From: Vitis vinifera
Taxonomy: Eukaryota; Streptophyta; Magnoliopsida; Vitales; Vitaceae
Assembly (NCBI RefSeq): GCF_030704535.1
Contig: NC_081808.1
Location: forward strand, 22,509,501-22,573,500
Direction of reading: 5' to 3'
DNA length: 64,000 nucleotides
Positions within the stretch are counted from its first letter, which is position 1. Each line of letters starts with the position of its first letter. Below are positions 8,106 to 47,051 of this stretch, one piece after another. Position numbers and translations under genes: made by a program. The notes beneath the pieces were generated by a model that was not told the origin of the DNA, searched no databases, and saw only the letters and a list, made by a program, of their open reading frames with translations.

Positions 8106-10335
8106 AGATCTCCCATCTTATCCCATAACATATATTTTCTCATTTTTATTTTTCTTCTCATCCTATTCTCACTTTTAGTGCCTGTTTAGGATCATTTTTT
8201 TTTTGTTGTTCATTTTCTCTCTTATTGGTCTACCTTTGCTCGACTCTATTGATTTTTGAGCCACATTTTAGAGGCCATTTAGGAGGTAATTTCAAATCCT
8301 AGCGTGATTTTTAAAGACCCCTTAAGCTTGGTCTTTTTTTTTTTTTTTTGAATTTCAACCTTAGGAGGACTTTAGGTTTTAGAATTTTTTAGAGAACTTA
8401 GCAGTTGGCGACATGTGTTCTCATCTTGGCCGTTCTTTTAAGCATTTTAAAGAAAGCCTTCTAAAGACTTTTTAAGGTTAGTTGATGGGGGAGCTTTGGA
8501 GCACGTTTTTTTTTCTTTTCTTTAGGTCAGCTATTAAGAGAGAATAGGTAAGGGTGAGCTGCAAGGTTAGGTTTTTTTTTAAAGAAATGATATTCTTTGC
8601 AAGGGTAGTTAGGAGAGAGAGATGATGAACACATTTTAGAATCTGTAGGAGACGCGTTTCAGACGGGGGAGACTCTTTCTATTGCTTTGTGGTTGTTAGA
8701 GAGAAAAGAAAAAATAAAAGTCTTATAGAGGAAGAAAAAAGGAACAAGGGGAAAGAAAGAAACAGAGGAGAACTAGCTGGTTCTCTAGGTTTGTGAAGAA
8801 AGCAAGGAAGACTAGAGGTCCAACAAATCTTGTTGGAGGGGAACACTTTTAGCTAGATGCTAAGGTACACTCCTATCTCTATCTTGTTTATTTATTTATT
8901 CTTTATTATCTGTAAACCCTCAATTTTGTCCCTTTAAGTTCATTTTCAGTGCTTCATAGTACTTCCTTGGTGGTCCATAACTACTCATACAACTTACCTT
9001 TTTTAAGCCACCTCAAAGATTTTGGTTGAGGGATTTTCTGAACCCTTTTTTGTGACCCTTGACAACCCTATTTTAGATTAGGCTTTTCCTTCTTTTTTTA
9101 GAAGAGCACACTTAGACATGTTTAGGTCACCTACACGATATCCTGATCACTTTAGGTTACGTAGGCACCACCCTAGCCCTCTTAGACACACTTGGCCTAT
9201 TAAACGTTTTTTACATGACTCACATAGTCGCATGACTTGCATGGTCCGCATAGGATTAACTATTTTATTTCATTTTATTTAATTATTTTGTTTTACTTTA
9301 TTCATTCATTTTATTTTACTTTATTCTTTTATATATTGCAACATTGCTAACTCTTTTTCGGTTTTATTCTTTTTATTTTCGTTTTTTTATTGTTTGACAA
9401 GAGAATGAGAGTTGTTGTTCAACTCTCACAAAGGCATGTACATTCAAAGAAGGTAAGAAAAATATTTTTGGAGGAAAACGAGGATTAACATGGCTGCATA
9501 CATATGGAAAGAGAATATCCTACATAGAAAGAGAGAAACATTCTGATTTTCGGAAAGGAAGGGAAATAAAAGAAAGGAAAGTAGATTTAAAAAGGAAGAA
9601 AAGAACAAAAACGAAAGGGGGATTTTCCTTTTTGTTTTGGAACAGATTTGTTGAAAAAAATAGGCTTTCCCACAAGTGTAAATCAATGGAAGCAATATAA
9701 ATAGAATAACAGAAAATAAATGAGCACACAAGATTTACGTGGTTCCCTCAAATAACTTGAGGTACGTCCACGACGACCGGTAGGTCAGTTTCTTCCACTA
9801 TCACCAAAAGAGTTTACAAAGTGGCCAAAAGGCATAAGCCTTACAAACATACCAAGGTGTAAATCACAAGAGGAAAATACCTCACAAAAGTAAACCAAAT
9901 CTCCAAGAACAAACCGCAAGAAACCCCAAATATCAAGTGAAGAAACGTTACCCACTTGAAGTACAAACTTGCCGATTGTGTAGCACCAAAAATGGAGAAG
10001 AAGAAGGCTGATTTTTGTTTTGAACCAAAAAGGTATCCCAAGAGTCTTCTTGCCGACCAAGATGATGAACCAAAGGAAAAGACAAAAGACTTGTAGTTTT
10101 TTTCTTTCCTTGAAGACTTCAAACCAATCTTGAATATGCCAAGAGTCATGTGCCAACCAAGGTGTTGGCCAAAATAGCAAAACCATATTTAGTAAATTTA
10201 AGAGTCCCACAAAGGAGGGAAACCCAACAAGATTTGGGTCTTTGGGGGCTGATATACATATGTGCAAAAGGATGTTGAAGTGAATTTTTTTTTTTTCGGG
10301 AGATAGTCTTGAGGAAAAGCACAGAGAAGCGGGAA
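8106..10335. repeat. Unidentified LTR-like repeat region
   Basis: No host gene seen. The stretch near 8919 (TGTAAACCCTCAATTTTGTC) has the look of a grape LTR start. The 9,700-9,900 stretch (gatttacgtggttccctcaa, ggtacgtccacg) resembles a widespread plant retroelement terminal region, probably on the - strand. A 160-codon open frame on the - strand at 9,785-10,267 is cysteine- and phenylalanine-rich and matches nothing I recognise. No paired ends, primer site or polymerase could be identified. Confidence 0.35.
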
Positions 10336-12659
10336 ATGAGCAAGAGTAGCCAAGTTCATCCAGGTATGTTTCTTGTTACTCTTGAAATTCTTACCCATAT
10401 TCGATTTCTCCGTATATTTGTTTTTAGAATATTTAATATATTGTTCGTTGGTGTGGACGTTAAGGGCCACAAGTTGTTCTGCTGAGCTTGGTTGTTTACT
10501 TCTTTATTCAATTTTTATTTTGATTATTTTACGTGTCATGAATGTCTTCGGAAATATACAACTCCATGCTTGAATGTGATCCTGCTCTTTTTTTTGTTTG
10601 AATCTTATCTTGTATTGTTCCCTCTGTTATGTTCTTAGCCCATGGATTAATACTTGAAGTGGAGACTATTTTTGTTTACTTATCAACATCTTCTGTTCTT
10701 TCCTCCTCTGAGTTTTACTTCGTTTTTATTTCATTTTATTTCTCTTCCATCCATTTTCCTGTATGCTGCCCAAATCCTTCTCATTACCTTTGGGTGTACA
10801 TTGAGGAATGACGGAAGTGTTAATACGAGATGGAGTATGCAACAATCTCACTCAAATATTGGATAGTTGATTCCGAGGTTCTTCTAGTGAACTACAGAAA
10901 TCTGGAATACGCATCATTGAAATTCGGATCTATCCCACACTACCAACCTCGGGAAACAGGGGAGAAATTCTGGGAGTTTGATTTTCGATTCTGTTAGAAA
11001 AATGGAGTTCACGCTACAACTGATGATTCCCATGGAAACAACCTTGTTGCCATTCTCTGTTGATCTTATCATCATATGGAGAGGGATCACCGACCTTGAG
11101 GAGAGATTTGGGTTTCTCTGGAATTGGAAAACTGAAGAAGTTCTGGATTCATCTTATTAGAAGATTATTACCACGCGCGGTTCCTGGAGGGGTGATCCAA
11201 AGAGAGGATTGGTTAGAGGGAACTGTGGATAACCGGAAAGTAGAAGAAACTGAAGGGATCATAGCTGAATGGAGGATGGAAACTCGCACTTTCCCTTTGA
11301 AGCCATTGAAGGCGAGGGAAAAGCCTTTGAATATTCACATCTCTGTCATCTGATCAATGATTCTCTTCCTCTTTACATCGAATCAGAGCTAATTTCAGTG
11401 ACCAAACAAAAAATCTTTTGGTTGCTCTTTCCCAGGATTCAAGAAAAATTCAATTCTGGATATATGAGCTTGATTCCGATTCCCGTGACGACATAGCGGC
11501 CTAACCTACTTATATTGAGAAATCAGAAAATTATGAAGAGCATTGTTGTTTGACTAGAATCATAGCCAACTTGCTGAAAGTCAATATGTTCAATATTTGG
11601 CGAGCAAGGTTCTTGTGGTCATTTATGAGTTTGTGGTGGTTTCTGGAAGTAATTGGGAGGGATTTGTGCATTTTTTGCGTGTTTGCTTTGATGTAGCAAT
11701 TGGAAACTTTCTTTCATCGTCTTTAACACTCCAAACTGATGGGGACGAAATTTTTACTGAGAAGTCAAGTTTTGTTGTTTTTTGTAAAATCCAGACTGAA
11801 AAATGCAAATTGGTTTGCAGTGGCTGGTATTATTCGAGTTTTGAGTAATATATTGAAATACTTGAAGCAAGAATATGATGATCAACTTGGGAAAATACTT
11901 GGATTCTATCAATTCTTGTTTGTCAAATGTGCCTTGGGATTCATTGAATGATGTTTGTGTTGGTCAGAATGGTGACACTTAGAGACGCTCAAACACTTTT
12001 AGTCTGAGGAATGTTCAGCTACTAGAGTCAAAGGTTGTATTTCTAAGAAATCTTGTTCAGTTCTTCTGTTTATTGGTTGAGCAAAATGGTTCTTTGGGAA
12101 TCCCAAGTGTTTCTCTAGGTAAGTATCCTGTTCTTTATAACATCAGCAACCTTGTTCCTAAGTTTCTATATTGGTGCCTTGGCAAGCAATGGAATTGTAA
12201 CAGCTTGTGCATCTCTGTACTTTAAACACAAGTTGTTGATGCTAATGTTTAGGCTCAGTTTCTATATCCGTCTACAATATTCAATTCTTGCTTCTTTGCT
12301 GCAAGTTCTCCATGAACACTTTCAAGATCTTTTGCTCCAACCAATACGTCAAGTCAAGCCTGATGAGAGTGGTTGTCTTGAAGGCTCTCCATTTTTTATT
12401 CAGTATTCTTGATGGAAAAGTATATAACATGTCTTTATACCATTTACAGAGACAGACTGTTTTCCTTTTCCTAAGGTGTTCCTTCAGTTTGATCAGTCTG
12501 AGGGAAGAAATAAGAGAGCAATGTGCATATGCAGCTACCAATTCATGCGTGACATTTGACCTAAATTCAAATTTGGAATGTTGTAGTCAAAAGAAAGGTC
12601 TATCAGAGCTTTATGAGCGGCTTCAAGGACATATTCCTAAGTGTTTAGTTGTGAACCTT
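10336..12659 (+). other. 5' part of the gene-fragment block, source unknown
   Basis: Starts with an exon-like piece, ATGAGCAAGAGTAGCC to CCAG, followed by a good donor gtatgt at 10,364. After that come 2.2 kb of moderate-GC, broken coding-like sequence on the + strand, with stretches such as LKYLKQEYDDQLGKILGFYQ at 11,860 and GLSELYERLQGHIPKC at 12,600. None could be assigned. Base composition is unlike the AT-rich flanks and like the recognised fragments downstream, so it probably belongs to the same chimera. Confidence 0.4.
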
Positions 12660-13411
12660 AAAATGTATTAGACAGTTATTTCTTAGATATGCTGAAGCTC
12701 TGTTTTCTTTGCTCCAACTTCTTTGTCAGTATCATGTGACACGCTTGGTTCAGGGTTTTGATGTTAATCTACGACAATAATTAGTTCAATTAACACTCCA
12801 CCAATCTGTTTGTTCCGAGGAAGGTGATCGGCTTGCTACTAGGTTAATATCTTCCCTAATGGAGTATTACACTGGTCCTAATGATAAGGTAACAGTTGAT
12901 GATATTAGCGCACGATTGCGAGAAGGTCGGCTAGGCTATTACAAGGGGACTGATCACAAACTTTACTTAGCTGTGGAGTTTCTTGAGAGAGCTACTGTAA
13001 CTTCTGACACCGAAGAGAAGGAAAACCTTGCTAGAGAGGCCTTCAATCTCTTGAATAAAGTTCCAGAACCTGCAGATTTGTGAGCAGTTTGCAAAAGGTT
13101 TGAAGACTGGAGATTTCATGAAGTTGTGGTTCGTTTACCACTACAAAAAGGCACAAGCCCCTTGTCCCTGAAGGTGATGCTTCCAATGAGCGACTTGATG
13201 CAGAAATTTGAGAACATGCACTTGCTTAGCTTGAACAATGTTATGAGATTATCACCAATGTTTTGTGTTCTCTAAAAAAGGCGAGGCTTTTCTAGAAGGA
13301 ACTCGGATCTCCCGTGAGTCCCGCTGCCTGATCCACCCTTGATTAGGCTTCTCGAGACATATACATACGCCAAACTGTCCAACTTAGTGTTAAATCATCT
13401 GACACAGTCTT
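12660..13411 (+). pseudogene. NUP155: NUP155 fragment (nuclear pore scaffold nucleoporin)
   Basis: Reads through C-IRQLFLRYAEALFSLL, HVTRLVQGFDVNLRQ, CSEEGDRLATRLISSLMEYY, VTVDDISARLREG, TSDTEEKENLAREAFN and ASRDIYIRQTVQLS, in the order found in plant NUP155 C-terminal regions. Family members are about 1,500 aa, so this is roughly a sixth. The frame is broken by several stops, e.g. TGA at 13,081 where the family has Arg, and by at least one shift near 13,150. No intron-like gap is visible across about 750 bp. It ends abruptly at 13,411, where POL5 sequence begins. Matching is from memory of the family. Confidence 0.75.
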
Positions 13412-13945
13412 TCAGATACTGTTTCAGTACAGATCCAAAATATGTTAGGCCCCTTGCAATTCTTGCCCTTGATGATCTCTTCCAGCATGAAGGACTTGCT
13501 AGACCTAGTGATTCTGTATCAGCATATCACGACAGCAAACACTTGGCATCTGATGTTCTGCTTCTTCTCTTATCAAGGTTGCCTGCATCTTTCGTCCCAA
13601 TGGTTCTCTCTTATGAACTTGTCCAGTGTTTAACGGACATGCTTCCTACCAAAGACATTTGGCTGCATAAAGTTGCACAATATTTTCTTAAAGACCTATC
13701 AGATTGGGTCAGATATGATGATGTTAGAAAAGTATATGTCATCATGGCTCTACAGAAGCATAACAGTGGGCGATTTGATTGCATTACATGGATAAAAACT
13801 GTTAAAGATTTGATGGCAGAGTTCAAAACAGAATCTGGATGCATGCCATTTAATCAGAACTTAATTAGCATGTTTGTGGATGAGGCTCATGCTTCGGAGA
13901 AACCTTCTGATCAGAGTTAGACCATAAATGACAATCCTTTAACAA
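13412..13945 (+). pseudogene. POL5 / MYBBP1A-like fragment (DNA polymerase V homolog)
   Basis: An open stretch reads YVRPLAILALDDLF, LLLLLSRLPASFVPMVLS, VAQYFLKDLSDWVR, VIMALQKHNSGRFDCI, TVKDLMAEFKTESGC and FVDEAHASEKPSDQS. This follows plant POL5, a nucleolar HEAT-repeat protein of the MYBBP1A family linked to rDNA transcription. It runs without a break for about 168 codons to TAG at 13,918, where the family has Gln (CAG). Only an internal slice of a protein of over 1,200 aa is present. The join to NUP155 is at cag/atac. Assigned by recollection, not by search. Confidence 0.68.
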
Positions 13946-14045
13946 CATTTTCCATATTTTGAGAAGATGTTTCCATTGTAATCAGATTGGTGGGGGATCT
14001 TAAAAGATTAGATGAATTCCCAGGAGTGAAGGACACCAAATTTGG

Positions 14046-14700
14046 AATCCGAATGCTAAAGTTATCATGCTTTGTAAACAGTTACAGATTGTTCATCATG
14101 TAATAATGACTGGTGCGCCAATTCAGAACAAGCTGGCTGAGCTGTGGTCTTTGTTCGATTTTGTCTTCCTTGGGAAGTTGGGAGTGTTGCCTGTGTTTGA
14201 AGCAGAAGTTGCAGTTCCCATATCTGTTGCTGGCTATGCCAATGCCTCTCCATTACAAGTATCCACTGCTTATAGGTGTGCAGTAGTCCTACGTGACTTG
14301 ATTATGTCATATCTCCTTCGATGTACGACAGTTGATGTGAATGCTCAGCTTCCAAACAATACTGAACATGTCCTCTTTTGCAGCCTTACCGCAGAGCAGT
14401 ATTCTATATATCGAGCACTTCTCTCGAGTCTGGAGGTGGAATAGATCTTTGATGGTAGTAGAAGTTCTCTTTATGACATTAATGTGATATATAAAATATG
14501 CAATCACTTTGATCTACTTGAGCAAGAGTGCATGCTTACCAGAATCCAGATTATGGGAATCCTGAACACAGTAGAAAAAAAAAAACGAAAATTGTCGCTC
14601 ATGTGCTTAAGGGGTGGAAAGAACAGGGTCACCGCGTTGTTCGTTTTACACAAACTCAACAAATACTTGATATTCTTGAGAATTGCCTGATCGCTAGCTG
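14046..14700 (+). pseudogene. CSB/CHR8 SNF2 helicase fragment, ATPase core
   Basis: NPNAKVIMLCKQLQIVHHVI, MTGAPIQNKLAELWSLFDFV, LRDLIMSYLLR and later GWKEQGHRVVRFTQTQQILD are SNF2 motifs III to V as in plant Cockayne syndrome B (ERCC6, CHR8), a transcription-coupled repair ATPase. MTGAPIQN is the motif III region and FTQTQQ belongs to helicase lobe 2. Stops include TAG at 14,442, where the family has Gln, and a frame change occurs after about 14,530. The Walker A and DEAH segments lie upstream in the real gene and are absent here. Dead. Confidence 0.8.
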
Positions 14701-15085
14701 CTGATCGTCTAAGAAGCCTTAAGAAAACAAAAGCTCAACTTGAAATAGAGCTTTCAAATTTGCAAAAAGAAAAGCCTTCCAAGATTGTTGAGCATGACTA
14801 GGTGATACCAAATTTGGTTAAGGAGGAGGCAAGACCTAAGAAAATGTTAAATGAAATTCTGAAATTGGGCAAAGAATTAAAGAAGCGAAAGAAAACAATT
14901 CCATTTGATGATGATGTTGATTTTGATACAGTCCTGGATACAACTTCTGCAGGATTTGTCAAAACAAAAAGAGACAAGTTGGTTAGAAATGGGATTTTAA
15001 CTCATTTCCATAAGCTCAAAGGCTTTGAACGTCATCTTCAACAACCAGGTCCATCAAGTAGAGACAATTTACCTGAGGATAAAGA
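14701..15085 (+). pseudogene. CSB/CHR8 N-terminal fragment, placed after the core
   Basis: AADRLRSLKKTKAQLEIELS, HFHKLKGFERHLQQPGPSSR and DDDVDFDTVLDTTSAGFV correspond to the region before the ATPase core of plant CSB. In the source gene this precedes the piece at 14,046-14,700, so the order is swapped here. The join is at cctgatcgctag/ctgctgatcg, where ctgatcg occurs on both sides, which suggests microhomology. One stop falls near 14,800. Lysine-rich stretches (KKRKKT) resemble the family's nuclear signals. Confidence 0.75.
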
Positions 15086-15865
15086 GAGTAGCATTCGCAT
15101 CAGAACTGAACCTATTGTGAGGCAGATCTTAGGATTCTCTTGGCCATCAGCTGATGAACTTTCTAATTGATACAAGTGCTGAAGTTTCTATTGGTCAGAT
15201 CATTGACCTCAAAAGAACAGCAAAAATGCTCTTGAATTCAGTCAAAAACATATTGAAATCGTTGTATCGCTGGAGGATTATGCTGCCATGAATCCAACCA
15301 AGCGTTTCACCTTTGTCTCCCATAGTGCTAGAAGGTACTCTGCCAAAAAGGTTCTGGAACCCTCAAATATTTAAATTGGAGGATTCTAATGCTTTACTAG
15401 CACTCACCCTATGACGAATACTCAGTTTATGATGAAAAAGTGGAGTTTCTGGCATCCACCTATGCACCGAATGCAGAATCAATATTTGCTCCTCTCATAG
15501 GAACAAACAATTTTCACAACAAACCAAGTGTTCAAGATGATGCAGGCTGCAAGAATTTCTCGAAAGAATTGCAAATGGCCAGACTAGATGATGAAGCCGT
15601 TCTCCAAAAACTGAGGCAAATGCCATTGGAAGTGGGAAAATTGAAACAGAATTTATAATGCTCTTCTTCCCTCATGTTCAAAGGCTGGTCTGAACAATAC
15701 TGGAGTCGCCTACGCAGCCATGCTAGACACTAGAAGCTTTATGCTTGCAGACCGCAATTCCACCACATTCTTCACAGGTTTCATCCATATTCCAGAAATT
15801 CCAAAAAGGAAAAGAAAAATCGATGGTGATTGGATGCATAAATTAGCAATCCGGGCTAACCAATT
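15086..15865 (+). other. Unidentified coding-like fragments in the chimera
   Basis: Readable stretches include CKNFSKELQMARLDDEAVLQ (from about 15,540) and FFTGFIHIPEIPKRKRKIDG (about 15,770), with NNTGVAYAAMLDTRSFMLAD before it. They look like protein sequence from one or two host genes, in the same strand as the neighbours and with several breaks, but I could not name the sources. Confidence 0.4.
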
Positions 15866-15879
15866 TTAGTGGCAGCTTG

Positions 15880-16125
15880 TGTTCGCTCTACAGAAGCAAG
15901 GAGAAGGGTTTTCATGGAGATCAGTAATATACTTAACGACTTTAATGATTTATCTAATGATTTTAGGCCACTCGACAATGATATCCAAGCTTTTATTGAT
16001 TTGCTCAATGATGAATTGGCTGCTCGATCACCTACAGCCGATCATGTTGAGTCTTTTAATACCACTCAAACCTTTGGCGGGTTTGAGGCTGCTACTGATG
16101 ATATGGAACAAGACCTGCAGTCACC
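15880..16125 (+). pseudogene. UPL1/UPL2 HECT E3 ligase fragment
   Basis: VFMEISNILNDF, FRPLDNDIQAFIDLLNDELA, AARSPT and then ADHVESFNTTQTFGGFEAAT followed by DDMEQDL match the acidic, ubiquitin-binding middle region of plant UPL1/UPL2, which are giant (over 3,600 aa) HECT ubiquitin ligases. RSPT is joined straight to ADHVESF, whereas the family has roughly 100 residues between them, so the piece carries an internal deletion or an exon skip. No catalytic HECT domain is present. Confidence 0.68.
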
Positions 16126-16184
16126 GAATCTCTGCAAAGAACAGATGTATCATGTACGCATTCTCAATTTTTTGAAATGCAGAT

Positions 16185-16520
16185 TGAACGCAAATGGCAG
16201 CCTGTCAAACTGTCCTAGAAGTGTGTCGATGGATTTGGGTGGGAGATGGATTCGCAACTGCTGATGAGGTTGTCCTTGATGATCCCCACCATTTAGCTCC
16301 TATATACGTGTCATACCAGTTGATTTAGCAGTTTTCAAGGAATTATTTTTTGAAACTCGGAATTCAGGAGCTCTTGAAACCTGATGACATGTTAGCATTT
16401 TAGGTGCAACATCTGGCTGAAGTTCAGTTTCATGAACATAAATCTAAGATCTACTTACCTGATGTGTCAGGAAGACCACTTCTTGTCAATAAGTTAGTTT
16501 ATGATGATGCTCCCTAGCTG
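16185..16520 (+). pseudogene. Plant sacsin-like fragment
   Basis: In one frame AACQTVLEVCRWIWVGDGFA then DEVVLDDPHHLAP, and further on QHLAEVQFHEHKSKIYLPDV with GRPLLVNKLVYDDAP, as in plant sacsin-like proteins of over 4,000 aa that carry repeated Hsp90-type ATPase regions. Frame changes and stops (for example TAG at about 16,328) break it. It lacks the ATPase motifs. The source family is recognised from memory only. Confidence 0.6.
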
Positions 16521-18000
16521 TTTGGTTCCTAAAGGTGAATATCTGCCTGCAAAAGAGGTGAAGCAGCCCCTAATGCTGCTGATTCTGATACAGCAAGAAA
16601 CTTCTCATGAAGTCACTCTTATGACACTACTGATGAGGAACTCACGTCAATTGTAATGGAAAACTATCAACATTCAGAGCCTCAACACGGTCTTGAAAGC
16701 TTTTCTACCAGAGAAACAATTTCTCTTAACTTCTTAGAAAAGGCTACGTCAGGCTATGAATTCCATCGACCAGAGAGATAACCTGGGACCTTACAAATGT
16801 CAAATTAAGTTACGCTTTGCAAAACGGACTAAGGGTAGAACTTCATCAGCATAACCAGATTTCGTGAGAGATGAAGTAGATATTGGTCCGAGAGGGTATG
16901 AACAAAGCAGTAGAAATGAAGTCACTATTATTTCCAGGCAGAGCATCAGGAGAGGAAAGAATAATATGAAAGGTTCCTATCCAACGGGCATTCTCAAGGT
17001 TCCCAGCTTTCTCATGGGCTATCACATCTTAACAATACGTGTACTTCCAGCCAAAATTATTCAGAGTGTTACTACATTTTCACAGAGACAGATGCATGAC
17101 GTGGAATGTCTCGCAACAAAGCTCACGAGAGGGTTGAAATCCACGCACAGGACACAAAATCAAAACAACAACTCCATAGCTGCTTGGGCAGCAAACAGAA
17201 CAAAACGCGAGTCACCTTCGAGCTATATATCCATGACACAATTACCCTGCCCAAATAATGCAAAGATAGCTATCGAAATTGTGAATCTCCCTATCTATCC
17301 AGTCTTTGATGTGATGCAGGCAATGGGGTCCATTAAGAGTCAATTTGCGTTGATGATTATGAGAAAGAAGCTTTCCTTTGTGACATGCCATGGACATTAT
17401 TAGCGAACGCTGCACTTGTGTCTACATTCTGGAGGATTTTTAGAAGCACTCTTATCCAAGGTGATTCAATTGTGTCGACTCTCAGTCAGGCTCAAGAAGT
17501 TGTGAATTAAAAAGTTTAGGATTCGGTCCAGATTTCTTTTTTGAAGGGTAGTTTGTCGTTGTAGTTGAAATGAAAAACATCAAGAGCGCAAAAAGAGAGT
17601 TCAAAATTGTTCAAATCAGGGTTTAAGCGGACTGAATTGACATTTGGCTTGAATATTAAAGAAAGATAAATGAATCTCCAGATTTGTGGCTGAGATGGCT
17701 AAAAGACTTGAAGCAATGGAAGGCAAAGTAACAGAGTTTCGAATTAACGCATGCCTCAGGTTCCATGAAAAGGGGTGTAGGTTCCCTCAGCTAGACCTAG
17801 AAGCATTATTCCAGGTTCGGCAGAGTCTCAAACAAGGAACTAGACGGGCAACTTATATGATCAGAAAGCATAGACATAAAAGGAAAATTCAGAGAAAATG
17901 AGTTATAGAACAGGAAACTTAATCTGAAATTGAGCATTACGTCTTCACCAGAAGCTTCTGTTGATAATTCAGGTTGTGATCCTGAGAAACTAGAGTTGTA
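16521..18000 (+). other. 3' part of the gene-fragment block, source unknown
   Basis: Moderate-GC sequence with a 179-codon open stretch (16,864-17,403; IISRQSIRRGKNNMKGSYPT) and a shorter one (17,686-17,901; MAKRLEAMEGKVTEF). Neither is recognisable, and neither has convincing codon or domain structure. It continues the composition of the fragments before it and gives way to LTR sequence at about 18.0 kb. Confidence 0.35.
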
Positions 18001-18019
18001 TTGAAGCCCTTTTTTTAGA

Positions 18020-19259
18020 TGAGGTGGCACCCTAAAATCCAGTAAACATGGGCTCTGAAGCGAATACATTCAGTTTCTTTCCAGACAACCAGTGGTCTAC
18101 AGAATCCTCCTTATGCAATCTGTTTCAACCATTTAGTCTCAAGTGCACCTCCAGACCTCACTCATATAGTGGTCACCTTGCCACACATCATACTCCTAAT
18201 GTTTCTTCTTATTCTTTTTTGTTATCTTACACATTTTAAATCTGGATTTCAAAATCTTTTTCCGTAAAAAATAACTCTAGTTTTATTTAAAATTCCCGAG
18301 AAGTTTCTGGGCATAAAATCCAAATTTTAACATACTATTTGCTGCCATTTTCCTTTCCAGCATGCATTTTCGTCATCTTCAACTATTTTCATGATTTTCT
18401 CGATTTTCGACAAGCATGAACAAACTTCATGATTCCAAACAATGGAATTCATAGAATCAACTCATGCAAAATCAATCAGGACCTTGGTGGGTGGTCCGAC
18501 ATTCTTGATATCTTCTCTGATATTGATTCAAATGAGGGGATTGTTCGATACTTGGCTGATTTCAATTGTTCCCTATGATATATATGAAAATTGTTTATAC
18601 TTGTTATTAAGCTAACCTTGTTTTCCATAGACGCATTTAGCTTGCTACCCAGGTACGCTCTCTCTCTCTCACACACACACTCATTTTCTCAAATTCTATG
18701 AACATACATGCTATTGAAGATCACTTCCATGTTTGATGTAATCCTTGGGTGTTTAGGTGTATACTTGATTTGCTTGGATAAAGCACATGTTGTGTGATAT
18801 ATTTCTATACTAACCTTTGATGTTTTGTGATAGCGCTTAAGAAGTGGTTCAGGTACGTACCCTAACTCTCCTTTATTGTGATTGATCTCCTTATTTAGCA
18901 TGCTATTTTCTGAAATCACCTAGCTTACTTAGGTATCTATAATTAACCAACTAATTGTCACACTTCCCTTAACTTAGTTAGTAGAGACCTTTATAGGACT
19001 TAGAAGGGTGTTACCTTTCAAAGGTACCTTCCCAATAGGTAACTTGATCCTTGGACTTAGACTCGGGTTTTTTTTAAAGACATGCTTTTTCCAAAACTAT
19101 GGAGTCATTTTTTTTAGGGTTTTATTTCTTGTTTTATTTTCCCTTTAAAATAAAAATAAAATAATTGGTGACTCCGACTTTTTCAAAAATTAATTTTTCA
19201 TAAATAAAAAACGAGTCTCGCTGATCGAGTGAGAGCGCACGTGAAAAATGCGGGTCCAC
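18020..19259 (+). mobile_element. Tat/Ogre-like Ty3/gypsy LTR (5' LTR of a fossil)
   Basis: The end is clear: gcgggtccaCA at 19,259, directly followed by ATTGGCGACTCCACTGGGGA, the leader and primer-site region known from Ogre/Tat elements. The last 600 bp match in reverse complement the sequence at 63,461-64,000. The start at 18,020 (TGAGGTGGCACCC) is a guess. Old. Confidence 0.65.
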
Positions 19260-21830
19260 AAATTGGCGACTCCACTGGGGATCTTGAGGATCAAGCTTAA
19301 ACACTATTTGAGGAAAATGTGGCGTTTAATTGGTCGATTAGAGGGTACCTCATCATTTTTAGGCAAGGCGATTTGGTTATCTTACTTGATTGCTTTGCTA
19401 TCTTAACATGTTGGCATTGATCCCTCTATAGTTCAACACCACTTACCTATCCTACCACATGCCAGACCGGTTAAGCAGAAATTAAGACGGTTACATCCAC
19501 GTTGGAGTCTGCAGGTGAAAGAGGAGATTCAGAAACAACTCTGTGTTGGATTCATATCAGTGGTTGAGTATCCAAAGTGGTTGGCTAATGTCGTCCCAGT
19601 TCCCAAAAAGGATGGCAAAGTTAGAGTTTGTGTAGACTTTAGAGATCTTAATAAAGCTAGCCCTAAAGATGACTTCCCTTTCCCACATATCGATTTGTTA
19701 GTTGATGGCACTATAGGCCATTCGATGTTGTCTTTCATGGATGGGTTTTCAGGGTATAATCAGATTTTGATGGCTCCAGAGGATATGGAGAAGACAACCT
19801 TTATTACTGAGTGGGGTACCTACTGTTACAAGGTTATGCCATTTGGGTTGAAGAACGCAGGAGCCACTTATCAGAGGGCCGCTACTACTTTGTTTCATGA
19901 CATGATGCATAGGGACGTTGAAGTTTATGTGGATGATATGATTATGAAATCCCAAGGCAGAGCAGATCACCTAGAGGCTCTAGAGAGATTCTTTGAGAGG
20001 ATCCGAAAGTTTAGATTGAGGCTGAATCCCAAGAAGTGCACCTTTGGAGTGACTTCTGGGAAGTTATTGGGACATATGGTCAGTAAGCGAGGCATAGAGG
20101 TCGACCCAGATAAAATCAAAGTCATACTTGACATGCCTGCGTCGAGGACTAAGAAAGAGATTAGAGGTTTTCTGGGTAGATTACAGTACATCAGTCGTTT
20201 CATAGCCAGATTGACAGACATATGTGAGCCCATATTTCATCTTTTAAGGAAGAATTAACCAACAGTTTGGAATGATGATTGTCAGCTTGCATTTGAGAAG
20301 ATCAAGGGGTACTTGCTTTTTCCTCCTGTTTTAGTGCCTCCTACGCCAAGACGCCCACTTCTTTTATATTTGTCAGTTTCAGACATGGTCTTGGGATGTA
20401 TGTTAGCTCAGATTGACAACTCAAGGGAAGGAGCAGGCTATTTACTATCTGAGTAAAAGGATGCTGGAGTATGAAGTGAAATATGTTATGATCAAGGAGG
20501 AAAATGTCGCAATATTTCGGCGATATATCGCCGAAATATCGTGTATCGGACCATCTCGACACGATATATGTTAGAGATATATCGGTTCCACGATATTTTA
20601 TCAATTTATCGTGATTTTCACTTATTTCTCGTGATTTATTGGCATTTTATCATTTTATCTTCAATATATCGCGATATTTTGGACGGTCAAATGAGGATCA
20701 ATGCGGTCAAACTTTTAAAAATGCCTCAGGACCGTCGCGGGGGCTCGAACCCCAGCCAAAAGGTTTGGTTGGCAGCAAGCCAACTGCTGGGGCAAGTTTG
20801 CCCCTTGATATATAATGTGCACCAAATATATATAAAGTCAAATTCATCATATAAACATAATTTTAAAAAAATGTTTTAAAGAACAAATTAATTATAATTA
20901 TTTTATAATTAAATAAATTTTTTTCATCTATTTGAATACCAAAAATATAAAAATTATTGTGATAATTTTCTTCATAATGTTTTTAATATTATTAATATAT
21001 TAATTAAGTATTAAAAATTATACACATATCATCATTTATTTTATATCATTTAATACAATTAAATTAAATGAATTATAATTTAAATATTAAATATATTTTA
21101 AAATTAGACATATTATAATCAAATATCACAAATATTATTATGAATAATATTTGATATAATTTAATAATAAATATATACTTATGAAATTTATAGTTTTTTT
21201 TTATTAACACATATACTATTATTGTCAAATATGATAAATCATATTATACATATATCAAATTATTTAATAAAATAATTTAAAAATATCATTATACTTCTAA
21301 TTACATTTTTATGAAGTTTTTTTTATATTTTTATAAATTTTAATCAATTTTATGTTTATCGATATTTTTTTCCAAAATATCCGCCGATATATCTCCGATA
21401 TATCCGTAAAATCGAAGTACCGATATATCCGTGATTACCGATATTTTCATTCTTGGTTATAATTGAGCGTCTATGCTTAGCACTAGTTTGGGCTACCAGG
21501 AGATTAAGACATTACATGACAGAGTACTCAGTGCATTTGATATCCCGCCTAGATCCATTGAGATACTTATTTGATAGACCTGCATTGACTGGTAGACTAA
21601 TGAGATGACTTGTACTTTTGACAGAGTTTGATATCCAGTATGTTTCTCAGAAGTCTATTAAGGGAAGTATTGTCGCCGATCACCTAGCCTCACTACCGAC
21701 ATCTGAGAATAGACCAGTTGATGATGATTTTCCATATGAGGAGTTTGTTGCTATGACCAGCTTATCAGGATGGTATATATTATTAGAGAAACACCCAAAT
21801 CAGCTCCAAATATAATGATAAAGCAACACG
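19260..21830 (+). mobile_element. Tat/Ogre-like Ty3/gypsy fossil, leader and pol remnant
   Basis: After about 240 bp of leader the element passes straight into reverse transcriptase (about 19,500-20,260, with the YVDDM catalytic box), then RNase H/connection sequence interrupted by a nested MULE at 20,494-21,455 and resuming to about 21,830. Gag, protease and integrase are missing and no 3' LTR is seen. It is broken, by large losses plus at least two or three smaller ones. The nested insertion and the lack of LTR partner suggest an old copy. Confidence 0.85.
20494..21455. mobile_element. Non-autonomous MULE, 962 bp, nested in the Tat fossil
   Basis: Ends aaggaggaaaatgtcg and (reverse complement) aagaatgaaaatatcg agree at 13 of 16 positions. 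Flanks GTTATGATC (20,485-20,493) and GTTATAATT (21,456-21,464) form a 9-bp target duplication with two differences, the Mutator hallmark. The subterminal parts are dense in cgatatatcg words; the middle is AT-rich. No transposase. Confidence 0.72.
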
Positions 21831-33740: not shown

Positions 33741-34397
33741 GTTCATAGAAGATACCGTCTTATGTGTTGGTCATAATGGGGAAAGATCGTGGAATGACCC
33801 TACTTTGCCCTCATAATCTTGAAGATAAATATGTTGTTGAATTGAATCGACTGTACGTGATTAATGTCATGAGCTTGATCAAAATAATATTTGTTCTATA
33901 AGTTTAAGCAATGACATAGTGTCAAAGGAATTCAATCAAAACTTAACTCTTATAATAGATGGTGCAGTCAAATTGATCTCTAATCATTTCCAAAAGAGAA
34001 GCACGTTTATTTCCAAAACTTCGCTGCTATTTAATAATTACACAATATATTTTTGCTACAACTTCAATAATGACATTTAAAAGCAGCAAACTTCAGACTT
34101 AGACCTAGTTTGGGAACTGTTTTCAATAACAGTTTTCTATTTTATAAAACAAAAAAATTGGAAAACACGTTTGACAATCAAAAGTTATTTTCTATTTTTT
34201 ATTTATCAGTTTTTATAGAATATTTTTTAGTCGTTTTCACTTATTTTTTGAAAACTATTATACAAATATATATAATGATTAAAAATAAAGTTGTAAACAT
34301 AAAAATTATTTTTAAAATATATTTAAAAATATTAAAAACAATATATTTCTACTACAACTTCAATAGTGACATTTAAAAGCAATAGGCTTGAGACTTA

Positions 34398-34791
34398 GGT
34401 CTTGTTTGGGAACTATTTTTAAAAACAATTTTATGTTTTTCAGAACAAAAAAATTAGAAAATATGTTTGGTAACTAGAAACTGTTTTCTATTTTTTGTTC
34501 TTAGAAAATAGAAACATGGTGTTTTCAGATAACATCTTTTAGTTGTTTTCAATTGTTTTTTTAGAGTTATTTTAAAAAATAATTACAAAAACATATATAA
34601 TGATTAAAAATAAAGTTATAGGCATAAAAATTATTTTTAAAACATATTTAAAAATATTAAAAACAGATTAAAAGTATTTTAGGTTCTCAAATAGATATTT
34701 ATTCTACAAAACATCATAGGAGAGTTTTTAAAAACTGTTCTTAAAAACTATTTTTCATAACTGTTTTTAAAAATAGTTATCAAACAAGCTC
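34398..34791. mobile_element. Tourist-like MITE copy (after SSL-3)
   Basis: TTA flanks at 34,395-34,397 and 34,792-34,794, and the same inverted ends as the copy at 5,414. Inherited by duplication. Confidence 0.7.
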
Positions 34792-35685
34792 TTAACTTTT
34801 TTGTTCTTCTACAAAGGGTTCATGGCCAACAAGAAGAGGCAAAGATGTCAAACACCACTCCACCCTCTCAAAATATGTTCCTTTCGTTTTTTCTTTTGCC
34901 TTTTTTGTCTCCCCCTTCGTGATTAAATTTCGTTTTTTATATTTTTTTTTCAAACTCATTTAACTTATTTTCTTCTATTATATAAAAAATAAATAATTTT
35001 AAAATGTATAAATTTCTAACTAAGTTTGTTTTTCTTCCATATTTTCTATGGTGAAATTAAATATGAGAAAACTATTTTTCTTATCATTTTTGTTTCTTTT
35101 CTTAATAATTTCTGGAAACCAAATATAGCTTAAAGAAAACGGTTTTCTCATATTTGATTTCACCATAAAAAATATAAAAGAAAATCAAATATCATTAAAA
35201 TTTGTCAAAATTTTATATAGTTTTAAATTATTTAATATTTATACTAATAGAAGGAAATAAGTAAAATGAGTTTAAAAAAACGTATAAAACTAATTTATCA
35301 CGGTGAAGATGCGAAAAGAGATCATGAGGTAAGTTAAGAGAAATCAATTTGGTTTTTAGAGGTATAGATAATATGGCTAGCAACAGTAGCAAGTGAATTT
35401 ATTTGAAACAGTCGTTGATCAACTGCCATACAGAGCTATTTTGCCTCTTGGTGTGAGCTGTTCTATAAACATGTTGCTATTTCAATCATTTATCCTGTAC
35501 ACACTCATATTTTTTTAGTTCATTAAAGAAAAAAAATACCAGTTTTATATAATCTATAATTCTTCCTACACTAAATTTTCATAATTGTCAGAAACCACCC
35601 CTTCAATTGATCCATATACTATGTAATGCGCTTCCTAAAGTCATACTCCAAGCAATTTCTGGAACAATGTAGATGGATCTTCAAT

Positions 35686-36680
35686 CTATTTCGGCCCTAA
35701 CTACTACCATAACCATAGGAGAAGATTCGTCGTTCAAAGAGCTTTATTCGCTCCTTTCTTAGGAGTGGGGAAACTGAACATCAATCAAATATAAAGATTG
35801 AGGCGGGGACCGCACTGAAGACAGCAAGTTTCGGGCAAGCAAGCTACCATGTAGGCTTTTTAATCTTTCTCTTGCTCATGCTCCAATCTGAAGGTGTTAG
35901 AACCTTGGGGCTACCTATCTTGAAGCCAATCCATTCTTCCATGCGCGCACAACACATGTTGAAATTCCACCTTTTCAGATACAAGGTGGTTTGGTCTTTT
36001 CTTATATAAGAAAGATTCTCTAAGGATATTAATAATATAGACATAACCAGGATATAAAAAATTTTCTTTTGGGGTTCTCCAAAGGATCACCAGCTTCGAC
36101 AGTAAAAAAATTTGTGTTAACAATGCTTCCTAGACACTGATTGGAAAATAAACATACTTATTTTTTAATATGGAGTCCCTTGAAAATATCTGGCTTTCTC
36201 TTTCTCTCTAGCATATTCGGCGGAGTCTCAACTACCACACAACTACTATCAAACAGTCTTGGTGGGTTCTCCTGCCCCTGCCCTCTATTTAATTAAGTGG
36301 TCCCATTTGCTTTCAAGCGGCTTGGCGCTAGAACACTTCATTAAGAAATATCAGAGTACCAAAGAGCATTTAATCATACACTCACTTTAAGGGCACTCTA
36401 AATGGATGGAAACTGCCATTCGCTGGGGGGAATTCGAACTTCGAAGTCAGACAAGTAAGACAAGCAAGCAACCATGCTCGAAAAAACGGAACCATCAGCC
36501 ATGAATCAAAGAAGGTATTCTCGACCGCTCACCTGGTCGTTACTATAAGATGATAAAGATGCAGGCTGCTCATTATTATTAGAAGAGCGAGGCTGGTTTC
36601 CAGCTGCTCAATAGAGGGCTGCGACCCTGATTCCCTTGGGATTCTGACTCCCCTGATGCACGGAAGGCGCAGGAAAAACC
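35686..36680. other. Probable mitochondrial DNA insert (NUMT), copy 1
   Basis: A sharp rise in GC and typical plant-mitochondrial wording (ggcaagcaagctacc, caagtaagacaagcaagca, ctttctctttctctctagc) between SSL 3'-flank sequence on both sides. It enters between ttcaat and aatacat, an SSL-2-like flank, with aat shared at both joins. Short reverse open frames inside are unrecognisable. Mitochondrial origin is inferred from style; no mitochondrial gene was recognised. Confidence 0.5.
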
Positions 36681-38033
36681 AATACATAAAGATGCCTAAA
36701 AAACTCTAAATTAGATGAAGATGAGATGTAGTTGATAGAAGATACTGTCTATGTGTTGGCCACATGGGCATGACACTGATTTGCCCTTGTAATACTTGAG
36801 ATTAAAAAAAAAAAAAAAACCTTAATGATGTATGCAATTTGCTTTCAAAATTTAAATAATTTGTTTTAAACTTTTTTTTCTTTTTTGCTTATTACTTATT
36901 TCTAAAGTTTTTTTTATTATATGTAAAATATCAACATATTTGATATTTTATTGAATGTTAAAAATAACTTTTTGAAATAATAAAAAAACAACTCAATATG
37001 ATCATCGCTCTATTAAGATTTAATATCTAATAGAAATAAAAATAAATAAAAACACAATTAATACTATTGAGTTGTATTTAAAGTTGAGTTAAATTATGTT
37101 TTATTCAACAAAAAAATGATATGAGCGTATAAAGAATAGTCAACCTTAATATAACTCTTAGGGTCTGTTTGATAGTAACTAATTATAGAAAACATTTTTA
37201 ACTTGAAAAATGCTTTTAAAAAAACATTAAGTGTTCGACAAACTTCGTGAAATATTTTTAAAAATTTAAAAGTTATTTGTAATATTAAAAAATCACTTGT
37301 AATATTTTTTTCAAAAAATATTTAATAAGTGATTTTTTTAAAAACATTTTTCTTAAAAGTAAACATTTTTATTAAAAACACTTAGAATATAAATACTGTG
37401 AAACACATTCTTAATATCTCTTAATAGATATTGCATTGCATAAACATGGGGTTAGATAAGGTAGGCTTGTCCTCATAAACATTCTATGCTACTTGGGAGT
37501 CCAAAGGTTGTTTAGGACAAAACCATTTTACGAGACAAGTTTCTTTTAGAAGTTTAAAAATACTTAGACATGCATGCACCGATGGGAAAGCAAAGATGAA
37601 TAAAAGTCAAATTAGTCGGTTTCCAAAAGTAAGGTGTTTCTATTCCCACGATTTCACTGATATTTAATAAATAACAGTATGTTTCCGCTGCAATAAATTA
37701 CTTCAGTAACAGTTAAAAGTAGCATCCTTCATTCATAACTCTCTTGTCTGTCTTGAAAAGTTTAGGATTAGTGGAAGAGGTAGATCTGTCAAGCACCAAT
37801 CCCCCTTTCAAAATATGTTCCTTACTCTTCTTCCCCTGCTTAAATAAATTTCTAACTTAATGAAAATCCTATATCATACCCAAAGACGTGGGATATGGTA
37901 GAGAATGGTTATTAATAACTAGCTTTCTTGGCAGCAACTTACTAGGCTGAAAGAAAATCCTAAGAAGAATTAAGACATTGTTTAATATCTATGACTAAGG
38001 CAATGATTAAGACTAACTTCTAGAAGAGTTTTC

Positions 38034-38516
38034 TTGATTTTTTTTTATTTTTTTTTAATATTTTATGTTCACATTAAACTCGACTTTTCAAAAAGGGAGT
38101 TGACTGTTTAAGCCCGACTCATCTTTTCATAAAAAAGTAATGGGACATTTTTGCTTTCATATTTTGGCCTCATCTATCTTATACCAGTATAAAATGAAAA
38201 TATATCTATCAATCAGATCAAAGTTACTATTAACATAACATGTTATGGCCACCACGCGAAATTGTTCATTGATTACAAAACAAGAAGGGAAAGAAAGAAA
38301 GCAAATCAAACCCCACCCACCTGTGATATTTTTGGCGTGTGTGAGAGGCAGCAAAGATCAAAGGTCAAGTTGAGCGGCTAAACTTATTACAAGTTTACCG
38401 GCAACCTGTAACTTATTTCTTTTTTTTCTTTTTTTCTTTTTTAAATACATAAGCCAGTTGGGCGGTCCTGATTGAACCACCTTCATCCAATGGTGGTACC
38501 ATAGAATTTTCCAAGA
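38034..38516. other. Upstream region of SSL-4
   Basis: From about 38,095 (gcccgactcatctttt) it repeats as 49,456-49,740 before SSL-6. A pyrimidine-rich run at 38,034-38,060 replaces about 300 bp that the SSL-6 side still has around its MULE, so this copy has a deletion. Confidence 0.6.
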
Positions 38517-42469: not shown

Positions 42470-43217
42470 CCATAGAAGATACCGTCTTATGTGTTGGTCA
42501 TAATGGGGAAAGATTGTGGAATGACCCTACTTTGCCTTCATAATCTTGAAGATAAATATGTTGTTGAATTGAATCGACTGTACGTGATTAATGTCATGAA
42601 CTTGATCGAAATAATATTTGTTCTATAAGTTTAAGCAATGGCATAGTGTTAAAGGAATTCAATCAAAACTTAACTCTTATAATAGATGGTGCACTTGATC
42701 GAAATAATATTTGTTCTATAAGTTTAAGCAATGGTTAAATGTTAAAGGAATTCAATCAAAACTTAACTCTTATAATAGATGGTGCAGTCAAATTGATCTC
42801 TAATCATTTCCAAAAGAGAAGCACGTTTATTTCCAAAACTTCACTGCTATTTAATAATTACACAATATATTTCTACTACAACTTCAATAATGACATTTAA
42901 AAGCATCAAACTTCAGACTTAGACCTAGTTTGGGAACTGTTTTCAATAACAGTTTTCTATTTTATAAAACAAAAAAATTGGAAAACACGTTTGACAATCA
43001 AAAGTTATTTTCTATTTATTTTTTATCAGTTTTTATAGAATATTTTTTAGTCGTTTTCACTTATTTTTTGAAAACTATTATACAAATATATATAATGATT
43101 AAAAATAAAGTTGTAAACATAAAAATTATTTTTAAAATATATTTAAAAATATTAAAAACAATATATTTCTACTACAACTTCAATAGTGACATTTAAAAGC
43201 AATAGGCTTGAGACTTA

Positions 43218-43612
43218 GGTCTTGTTTGGGAACTATTTTTAAAAACAATTTTATGTTTTTCAGAACAAAAAAATTAGAAAATATGTTTGGTAACTAGAAA
43301 CTGTTTTCTATTTTTTGTTCTTAGAAAATAGAAACATGGTGTTTTCAGATAACATCTTTTAGTTGTTTTCAATTATTTTTTTTAGAGTTATTTTAAAAAA
43401 TAATTACAAAAACATATATAATGATTAAAAATAAAGTTATAGACATAAAAATTATTTTTAAAACATATTTAAAAATATTAAAAACAGATTAAAAGTATTT
43501 TAGGTTCTCAAATAGATATTTATTCTACAAAATATCATAGGAGAGTTTTTAAAAACTGTTCTTAAAAACTATTTTTCATAACTGTTTTTAAAAATAGTTA
43601 TCAAACAAGCTC
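43218..43612. mobile_element. Tourist-like MITE copy (block D2)
   Basis: TTA at 43,215-43,217 and 43,613-43,615; the same ends as the copies at 5,414 and 34,398. Confidence 0.7.
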
Positions 43613-44507
43613 TTAACTTTTTTGTTTTTCTACAAAGGGTTCATGGCCAACAAGAAGAGGCAAAGATGTCAAACACCACTCCACCCTCTCAAAATATGTT
43701 CCTTTCGTTTTTTTCTTTTGCCTTTTTTGTCTCCCCCTTCGTGATTAAATTTCGTTTTTTATATATTTTTTTCAAACTCATTTAACTTATTTTCTTCTAT
43801 TATATAAAAAATAAATAATTTTAAAATGTATAAATTTCTAACTAAGTTTGTTTTTCTTCCATATTTTCTATGGTGAAATTAAATATGAGAAAACTATTTT
43901 TCTTATCATTTTTGTTTCTTTTCTTAATAATTTCTGGAAACCAAATATAGCTTAAAGAAAACGGTTTTCTCATATTTGATTTCACCATAAAAAATATAAA
44001 AGAAAATCAAATATCATTAAAATTTGTCAAAATTTTATGTAGTTTTAAATTATTTAATATTTATACTAATAGAAGGAAATAAGAAAAATGAGTTTAAAAA
44101 AACGTATAAAACTAATTTATCATGGTGAAGATGCGAAAAGAGATCCTGAGGTAAGTTAAGAGAAATCAATTTGGTTTTTAGAGGTATAGATAATATGGCT
44201 AGCAACAGTAGCAAGTGAATTTATTTGAAACAGTCGTTGATCAACTGCCATATAGAGCTATTTTGCCTCTTGGTGTGAGCTGTTCTATAAACATGTTGCT
44301 ATTTCAATCATTTATCCTGTACACACTCATATTTTTTTAGTTCATTAAAGAAAAAAAATACCAGTTTTATATAATCTATAATTCTTCCTACACTAAATTT
44401 TCATAATTGTCAGAAACCACCCCTTCAATTGATCCATATACTATGTAATGCGCTTCCTAAAGTCATACTCCAAGCAATTTCTGGAACAATGTAGATGGAT
44501 CTTCAAT

Positions 44508-45499
44508 CTATTTCGGCCCTAACTACTACCATAACCATAAGAGAAGATTCGTCGTTCAAAGAGCTTTATTCGCTCCTTTCTTAGGCGTGGGGAAACTGAA
44601 CATCAATCAAATATAAAGATTGAGGCGGGGACCGCACTGAAGACAGCAAGTTTCGGGCAAGCAAGCTACCACATGTAGGCTTTTTAATCTTTCTCTTGCT
44701 CATGCTCCAATCTGATGGTGTTAGAACCTTGGGGCTACCTATCTTGAAGCCAATCCATTCTTCCATGCGCGCACAACACATGTTGAAATTCCACCTTTTC
44801 AGATACAAGGTGGTTTGGTCTTTTCTTATATAAGAAAGATTCTCTTAAGGATATTAATAATATAGACATAACCAGGATATAAAAAATTTTCTTTTGGGGT
44901 TCTCCAAAGGATCACCAGCTTCGACAGTAAAAAAATTTGTGTTAACAATGCTTCCTAGACACTGATTGGAAAATAAACATACTTATTTTTTAATATGGAG
45001 TCCCTTGAAAATATCTGGCTTTCTCTTTCTCTCTAGCATATTCGGCGGAGTCTCAACTACCACACAACTACTATCAAACAGTCTTGGTGGGTTCTCCTGG
45101 CCCCTGCCCTCTATTTAATTAAGTGGTCCCATTTGCTTTCAAGTGGCTTGGCGCTAGAACACTTCATTAAGAAATATCAGAGTACCAAAGAGCATTTAAT
45201 CATACACTCACTTTAAGGGCACTCTAAATGGATGGAAACTGCCATTCGCTGGGGGGAATTCGAAGTCAGACAAGTAAGACAAGCAAGCAACCATGGCCGA
45301 AAAAACGGAACCATCAGCCATGAATCAAAGAAGGTATTCTCGACCGCTCACCTGGTCGTTACTATAAGATGATAAAGATGCAGGCTGCTCATTATTATTA
45401 GAAGAGCGAGGCTGGTTTCCAACTGCTCAATAGAGGGCTGCGACCCTGATTCCCTTGGGATTCTGACTCCCCTGATGCACGGAAGGCGCAGGAAAAACC
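44508..45499. other. Probable mitochondrial DNA insert (NUMT), copy 2
   Basis: Same insert as at 35,686-36,680 with few differences (e.g. ttaggcgtgg for ttaggagtgg, and a short loss at gaattcgaagtc). The same junctions show it was inserted once, before the D1/D2 duplication. Confidence 0.5.
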
Positions 45500-47051
45500 A
45501 ATACATAAAGATGCCTAAAAAACTCTAAATTAGATGAAGATGAGATGTAGTTGATAGAAGATACTGTCTATGTGTTGGCCACGTGGGCATGACACTGATT
45601 TGCCCTTGTAATCCTTGAGATTTAAAAAAAAAAAAAAAACCTTAATGATGTATGCAATTTGCTTTCAAAATTTAAATAATTTGTTTTAAACTTTTTTTTT
45701 TTGCTTATTACTTGTTTCTAAAGTTTTTTTTTATTATATATAAAATGTCAAAATATTTGATATTTTATTGAATGTTAAAAATAACTTTTTGAAATAATAA
45801 AAAAACAACTCAATATGATCATTGCTCTATTAAGATTTAATATCTAATAGAAATAAAAAAAATAAAAACACAATTAATACTATTGAGTTGTATTTAAAGT
45901 TGAGTTAAATTATGTTTTATTCAACCAAAAAAATAATATGAGCGTATAAAGAATAGTCAACTTTAATATAACTCTTAGGGTCTGTTTGATAGTAACTAAT
46001 TATAGAAAATGTTTTTAACTTGAAAAATGCTTTTAAAAAAACATTAAGTGTTCGACAAACTTCGTGAAATATTTTTAAAAATTTAAAAGTTATTTGTGAT
46101 ATTAAAAAATCACTTGTAATATTTTTAAAAAAAAATATTTAATAAGTAATTTCTTAAAAAACATTTTTTTAAAAAATAAATATTTTTTACTAAAAACACT
46201 TAGAATATAGATACTGTCAAACACATTCTTAATAGATATTGCATTGCATAAACATCGGGTTAGATAAGGTAGGCTTGTCCTCATAAACATTCTATGCTAC
46301 TTGGGAGTCCAAAGGTTGTTTAGGACAAAACTTTTACGAGACAAGTTTCTTTTAGAAGTTTAAAAATACTTAGACATGCATGCACCGATGGGAAAGCAAA
46401 GATGAATAAAAGTCAAATTAGTCGGTTTCCAAAAGTAAGGTGTTTCTATTCCCACAATTTCACTGATATTTAATAAATAACAGTATGTTTCCGCTGCAAT
46501 TAATTACTTCAGTAACATTTAAAAGTAGCATCCTTCATTCATAACTCTCTTGTCTGTCTTGAAAAGTTTATGGTTAGTGGAAGAGGTAGATCTGTCAAGC
46601 ACCAATCCCCCTTTCAAGCTATGTTCCTTACTCTTTTTCCCCTGCTTAAATAAATTTCTAACTTAATGAAAATCCTATATCATACCCAAAGACGTGGGAT
46701 ATGGTAGAGAATGGTTATTAATAACTAGCTTTCTTGGCAGCAACTTACTAGGCTGAAAGAAAATCCTAAGAAGAATTAAGACATTGTTTAATATCTATGA
46801 CTAAGGCAATGATCAAGACTAACTTCTAGAAGAGTTTGCTTGTTTATGTCATTGTGACCTTACTTACCAAGGATGCAGAAATACTTGTACTGTTAGACGT
46901 AGGATACTGGGTTATTGGAGTTTTGGGTCAAAATGGCTCATTTAAAAAAAAAAATGTAACATCTAACCATTTTTTGAAACTTATGTTCAAACTAGCCTCT
47001 TTGATGCCACGTAGGCACCATGTCATTAAAAAATATTTTTTTTTCATTATT

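Follow-up and report, generated by a model that had tools for sequence, protein, structure and literature searches.

A single long terminal repeat (LTR) in Vitis vinifera carries eight pieces of seven host genes, all in sense orientation and head to tail (11282-17143), and their origin in spliced host messages is supported by the loss of the introns that interrupt the parent genes. The window, by which we mean the whole stretch of 64,000 nucleotides that was analysed, is C4:22509501-22573500 of the genome searched (495.6 Mb, 21 contigs), and its features are collected in Table 1. Our preferred reading, to which we give a probability of roughly 80%, is that this LTR has a zone of spliced mRNA pieces that was filled by reverse transcriptase switching between element RNA and packaged host mRNAs.

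Table 1. Features of the gene-bearing LTR and of the adjoining element sequence (window positions).
Feature	Position	Strand	Remarks
One LTR, TG...CA	8911..19260	+	start TGTAAACCC, end GGGTCCACA; 10,350 bp
Later insertion, solo LTR of another element	9649..10229		TGTTG...CAACA, 581 bp; target duplication AGATT at 9644-9648 and 10230-10234
LTR sequence	10230..11011	+	also in LTRs without gene pieces (L061, L062)
Unassigned stretch	11012..11281	+	partly common to other copies
Piece of C7 gene, function unnamed	11282..12669	+	spliced; five GT-AG gaps by script, sixth by eye; 38-bp gap not an intron
Piece of NUP155	12662..13414	+	parent on C1; 2 introns removed
Piece of POL5/DNA polymerase phi gene	13509..13935	+	candidate parent on C3 matches 13523-13935
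Piece of CSB/ERCC6	14027..14695	+	parent on C7; helicase part, 3' in gene; 1 intron removed
Second CSB piece	14694..15079	+	parent on C7; from further 5' in gene; 1 intron removed
Coding-like piece	15069..15743	+	common to other loci; parent search without result
UPL-like piece	15757..16115	+	parent on C18; parent's 303-bp GT-AG open-frame stretch missing
Piece of C1 gene	16210..16528	+	sacsin-like in the initial annotation; 1 intron removed
Piece of C18 gene, function unnamed	16514..17143	+	2 introns removed
Sequence common to other copies of group	17144..18324	+	source searched, none found
3' part of LTR	18325..19260	+	ends GGGTCCACA
Primer-binding-like site	19261..19281	+	AATTGGCGACTCCACTGGGGA; motif match directly after LTR end
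Leader	19261..19412	+	common to other 5' LTR copies
Reverse transcriptase frame, RVT_1	19407..20258	+	directly after leader; E 7.5e-28
RNase H-like domain, RT_RNaseH_2	20259..20456	+

A search of the genome with the block 10336-18000 gave 55 matches, one being the block itself and the others partial, among the best 40 of 402 candidates scored; this is beyond chance. Searches with sub-blocks separated two kinds of match, element copies that are contiguous with the window and parent genes that are broken by gaps. Parent loci were fetched and aligned for six genes; for the seventh, POL5, a candidate parent contains an open frame of 420 aa. NUP155 was named by PDB (E 4.5e-38) and Pfam (Nucleoporin_C), CSB by PDB (ERCC-6, E 5e-46) and POL5 by Pfam (DNA_pol_phi, E 2e-23). 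The initial annotation, made from the letters alone, had described unrelated host-gene pieces back to back on one strand, among them NUP155, POL5/MYBBP1A and CSB in two pieces, and all of this was borne out. Its UPL1/2 and sacsin-like pieces likewise have parent loci, but the names were not confirmed: PDB or Pfam searches named neither these two parents nor those on C7 and C18, and UPL (for 15757-16115) and sacsin (for 16210-16528) serve as presumptive labels.

Alignment of parents with the window exposed 15 parent gaps inside the matched pieces, all absent from the window. A junction-sliding script found GT-AG ends in 13 of them, and at these the flanking bases agree at 17 to 23 of 24 positions. 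The fourteenth scored 11 of 24 by script and is GT-AG by eye, and we think that the low score is due to a neighbouring indel; the fifteenth, of 38 bp, is not an intron. With 13 of 15 absent gaps bounded by GT-AG, spliced RNA is therefore the source. The recognised parts had been said at the outset to lack introns and to lean towards RNA-level joining, and the missing parent introns, together with the sense orientation of all eight pieces, support both points. In the UPL-like parent (L074), the 303-bp GT-AG stretch lies within the open frame and is absent from the captured copy; it looks like an exitron that was spliced in the captured mRNA, and may thus be a possible exitron preserved by capture.

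These junctions also bear on how the pieces were acquired. Helitrons and Pack-MULEs are well-known multi-gene capturers, and one of them could have taken up genomic gene pieces and then landed in the LTR. However, genomic capture keeps introns, and here the 13 GT-AG gaps are gone; the spliced junctions largely refute this route. Further, no inverted-repeat pair flanks the block among the 25 longest of 77 pairs of at least 60 bp, and we give such a capture next to no credence.

No LTR pair for the block emerged from the repeats of the window, and the LTR was defined through genome-wide copies. All eight copies examined begin at window 8907-8911, and their upstream flanks differ except in one pair (L061 and L067), whose shared flank we read as probably the element's internal end before its 3' LTR. 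The end at 19260 is common to many copies, followed by AATTGGCGACTCC or by unrelated flanks. Exact matches to the start motif number 838 in the genome and those to the LTR end plus primer-binding-like motif 111, the window included, with none for either in a reversed control; positions were listed for the first 100 of each. Subtracting the later insertion together with the target duplication shortens the window LTR from 10,350 bp to about 9.76 kb; copies similar to the inserted solo LTR occur in pairs about 4.6 kb apart.

The position of the gene pieces within the LTR is given by a relative whose two LTRs, L062 and L061, are 2.5 kb each, 93.1% identical and 17.4 kb apart on C4, with TCGGA as a 5-bp target duplication on both outer sides of the pair. 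Window positions 8911-9650 (in parts), 10230-11011 and 18325-19260 are all represented in each of the two, and the gene pieces of the window are absent. As both window LTR ends are joined here in one piece-free LTR, the gene pieces of the window copy sit within an LTR. A reading of 8911-11011 as internal element sequence was dropped, since the same two LTRs place it in one LTR with 18325-19260. The repeat search found no second copy of 8911-19260 within the window, and the window copy looks truncated; the block is best taken as its 5' LTR. The carrier, for which the initial annotation had named Helitrons, Pack-MULEs and chimeric retrocopies as known precedents, is an LTR retrotransposon, and its ends, then reported as not found, are now located. 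The search for other copies and common ends that it proposed yielded both, and its pieces, order and strand hold; the limits of 10336-18000 give way to those of the LTR, with 10230-11011 being LTR sequence.

Downstream of the LTR, the reverse transcriptase frame comprises 283 codons, is stop-free and adjoins a 150-bp leader, and no gag or protease parts were seen between the two. By its domain make-up the carrier is probably Gypsy-type, and the primer-binding-like site may be of the Ogre/Tat lineage. The relative with 2.5-kb LTRs and no gene pieces has the same primer-binding-like site as the window copy. Elsewhere, the window holds a direct duplication of about 4.2 kb (33874-38039 and 42694-46845, 97.6% identical) and further direct repeats above 90%.

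The joins between pieces recur in the genome. Among the matches listed, at least five are found at other loci with 82-95% identity: the join of the C7 gene with NUP155 (C15:11991657, C13:10188721, C15:11776334), that of POL5 with CSB (C12:12490533, C19:24135539, C3:13352751), that of CSB with the piece starting at 15069 (C7:18821893, C11:14187793, C8:3128538), the join at 16514-16528 (C5:18731301 and C8:1427764, among others) and the end at 17143 (C16:6280791). The joins at about 13509-13528 and at 14694/14695 are spanned by no other listed match among the best 40 candidates scored. Those two would suit an assembly chimera, which had been raised as one of the circumstances that would undo the initial description, but recurrence of the others at separate loci argues that the block as a whole is not one, and we regard a chimera of this kind as highly implausible. 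Since some joins recur and two are crossed by no other listed match, the mosaic seems to combine blocks that were inherited with joins made in its own lineage, a pattern that recombination between RNAs of sister elements would produce.

Two further routes would start from RNA. LINE machinery, inserting processed mRNA copies singly into a genomic LTR from which gene conversion or recombination spread them to the other LTR, would also yield intronless pieces. The pieces are, however, internal gene parts, all eight are sense, and they abut with short shared bases at three joins, so we consider this route unlikely. The shared bases number 7, 2 and 7 at the three joins with both parents in hand (read by eye); three joins are few for a claim of microhomology, and these are raw counts. 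Read-through transduction, in which transcription of the element continues into adjacent genes and the spliced product is copied piecewise over many insertions, would be expected to leave spliced, sense pieces as well. It would require the element to have landed next to all seven genes, and the order of the two CSB pieces is swapped relative to the CSB gene; we find it very unlikely.

Judged by sequence, some related copies carry other gene mixtures in both LTRs. A pair of stretches on C15 (L075 and L076), 14,593 bp apart, is identical at 1,500 of 1,500 bp, which is all of the fetched sequence, and carries a PP2A-A piece (PDB E 1.5e-54), then a UPL-like piece, along with other pieces. The same 1.5-kb stretch lies twice on C1, in copies 13.8 kb apart and 99% identical; each of two LTR starts there is followed, 2,830 bp further in, by the UPL-like piece, and the 5' LTR has a length of 7,513 bp. 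Its PP2A-A piece matches two stretches of C17, and another piece matches two stretches of C18, each contiguous in the element as read from coordinates; such split matches are as expected for spliced captures. Two LTR pairs, on C2 (L010/L014, 99.91% identity over 3,338 bp) and C9 (L011/L017, 99.88% over 3,356 bp), with spans set by the fetched length, have only 17415-19260 in common with the window, a part without any named gene piece.

LTR length could be measured with exact motifs for 8 of the 13 ends with the primer-binding-like site on C1-C3, giving 3155, 7513, 1090, 4534, 4531, 4526, 4706 and 4621 bp; for the remaining five ends, no exact copy of the start motif lies within 15 kb. One region, C3:6919665-6970358, has four LTR starts at a spacing of about 16.9 kb, with LTR ends bearing the primer-binding-like site after the first three, which suggests that the element is arrayed there in tandem.

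Open reading frames of at least 75 aa were sampled in L075 and in 16 chosen non-empty stretches that adjoin the window match at other loci. By our count, 38 were sense and 20 antisense. Pfam host families at E 1e-6 or better were found in 6 of the 38 sense frames and in none of the 20 antisense frames, namely histone deacetylase (twice), PP2A HEAT, Pumilio, fn3_6 and PI4K, in a sample that is not fully independent, as both histone deacetylase frames look like the same capture and several stretches are related. The other 32 sense frames had no Pfam match.

We propose a model of capture by template switching during reverse transcription. We infer that host mRNAs are packaged together with the element RNA. 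During minus-strand synthesis on the 3' LTR region, reverse transcriptase would jump onto an mRNA and later back again by way of a few matching bases. A switch in this region would leave a sense, intronless piece in both LTRs, as seen. In LTR elements it is established that this one region of the RNA is the template for both new LTRs, and PMC13317346 also summarises template switching; each capture would therefore be doubled and inherited, and the LTR as a capture site would propagate each piece. Further rounds, and switching between co-packaged sister-element RNAs, would then assemble the mosaic.

In a broader context, and with slightly less than even confidence, we suggest that an LTR capture zone is lineage-wide and continues to gather spliced pieces of host mRNA and to rearrange them. 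Such a zone would have been active recently, because one pair is identical over 1,500 bp, and would supply the genome with many mobile multi-gene exon chimeras; the adjoining LTR end may bear the promoter, and the parent genes may be affected by the RNA that results. With capture in the LTR and many joins whose parents can be identified, mRNA capture by a plant retrotransposon becomes countable in one genome: which mRNAs, which joins, which orientation and how often. Caution is warranted, as such pieces may be entered as genes when long LTRs are annotated.

Several known systems resemble parts of this arrangement. The Bs1 retroelement of maize is described in PMC13317346 as an LTR element that carries parts of three host genes, and several host genes are likewise represented in the element here; by comparison with that description, the grapevine pieces come from seven genes, lie inside the LTR and occur in several copies with different mixtures. 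The same review reports that BARE-2 and the Veju TRIM gained foreign sequence by abnormal template switching, BARE-2 into its LTR, yet the inserts are another retrotransposon (BARE-2) and unknown sequence (Veju) rather than spliced mRNAs of several genes. In maize, 425 intact LTR elements hold gene fragments, and under the conditions of that study none of them combined fragments from two or more standard nuclear genes (Baucom 2009, PMC2774510); gene fragments are common to both cases, and the difference here is several genes in one element. Ogre elements are Gypsy-like with LTRs of 1.9-6.5 kb, as given in PMC6431247, and the likeness is confined to very long LTRs, here of 7.5 kb and about 9.8 kb and with host gene pieces. 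Maize Helitrons, according to the same source, hold up to nine gene fragments and are similarly multi-gene chimeras, whereas the carrier here is bounded by LTR ends and its pieces are spliced. A literature search with subscription papers largely outside its reach returned no description of several genes captured within LTRs. Uptake of genes by LTR elements has precedents; serial capture of several genes within the LTRs of one family looks like a new form of it.
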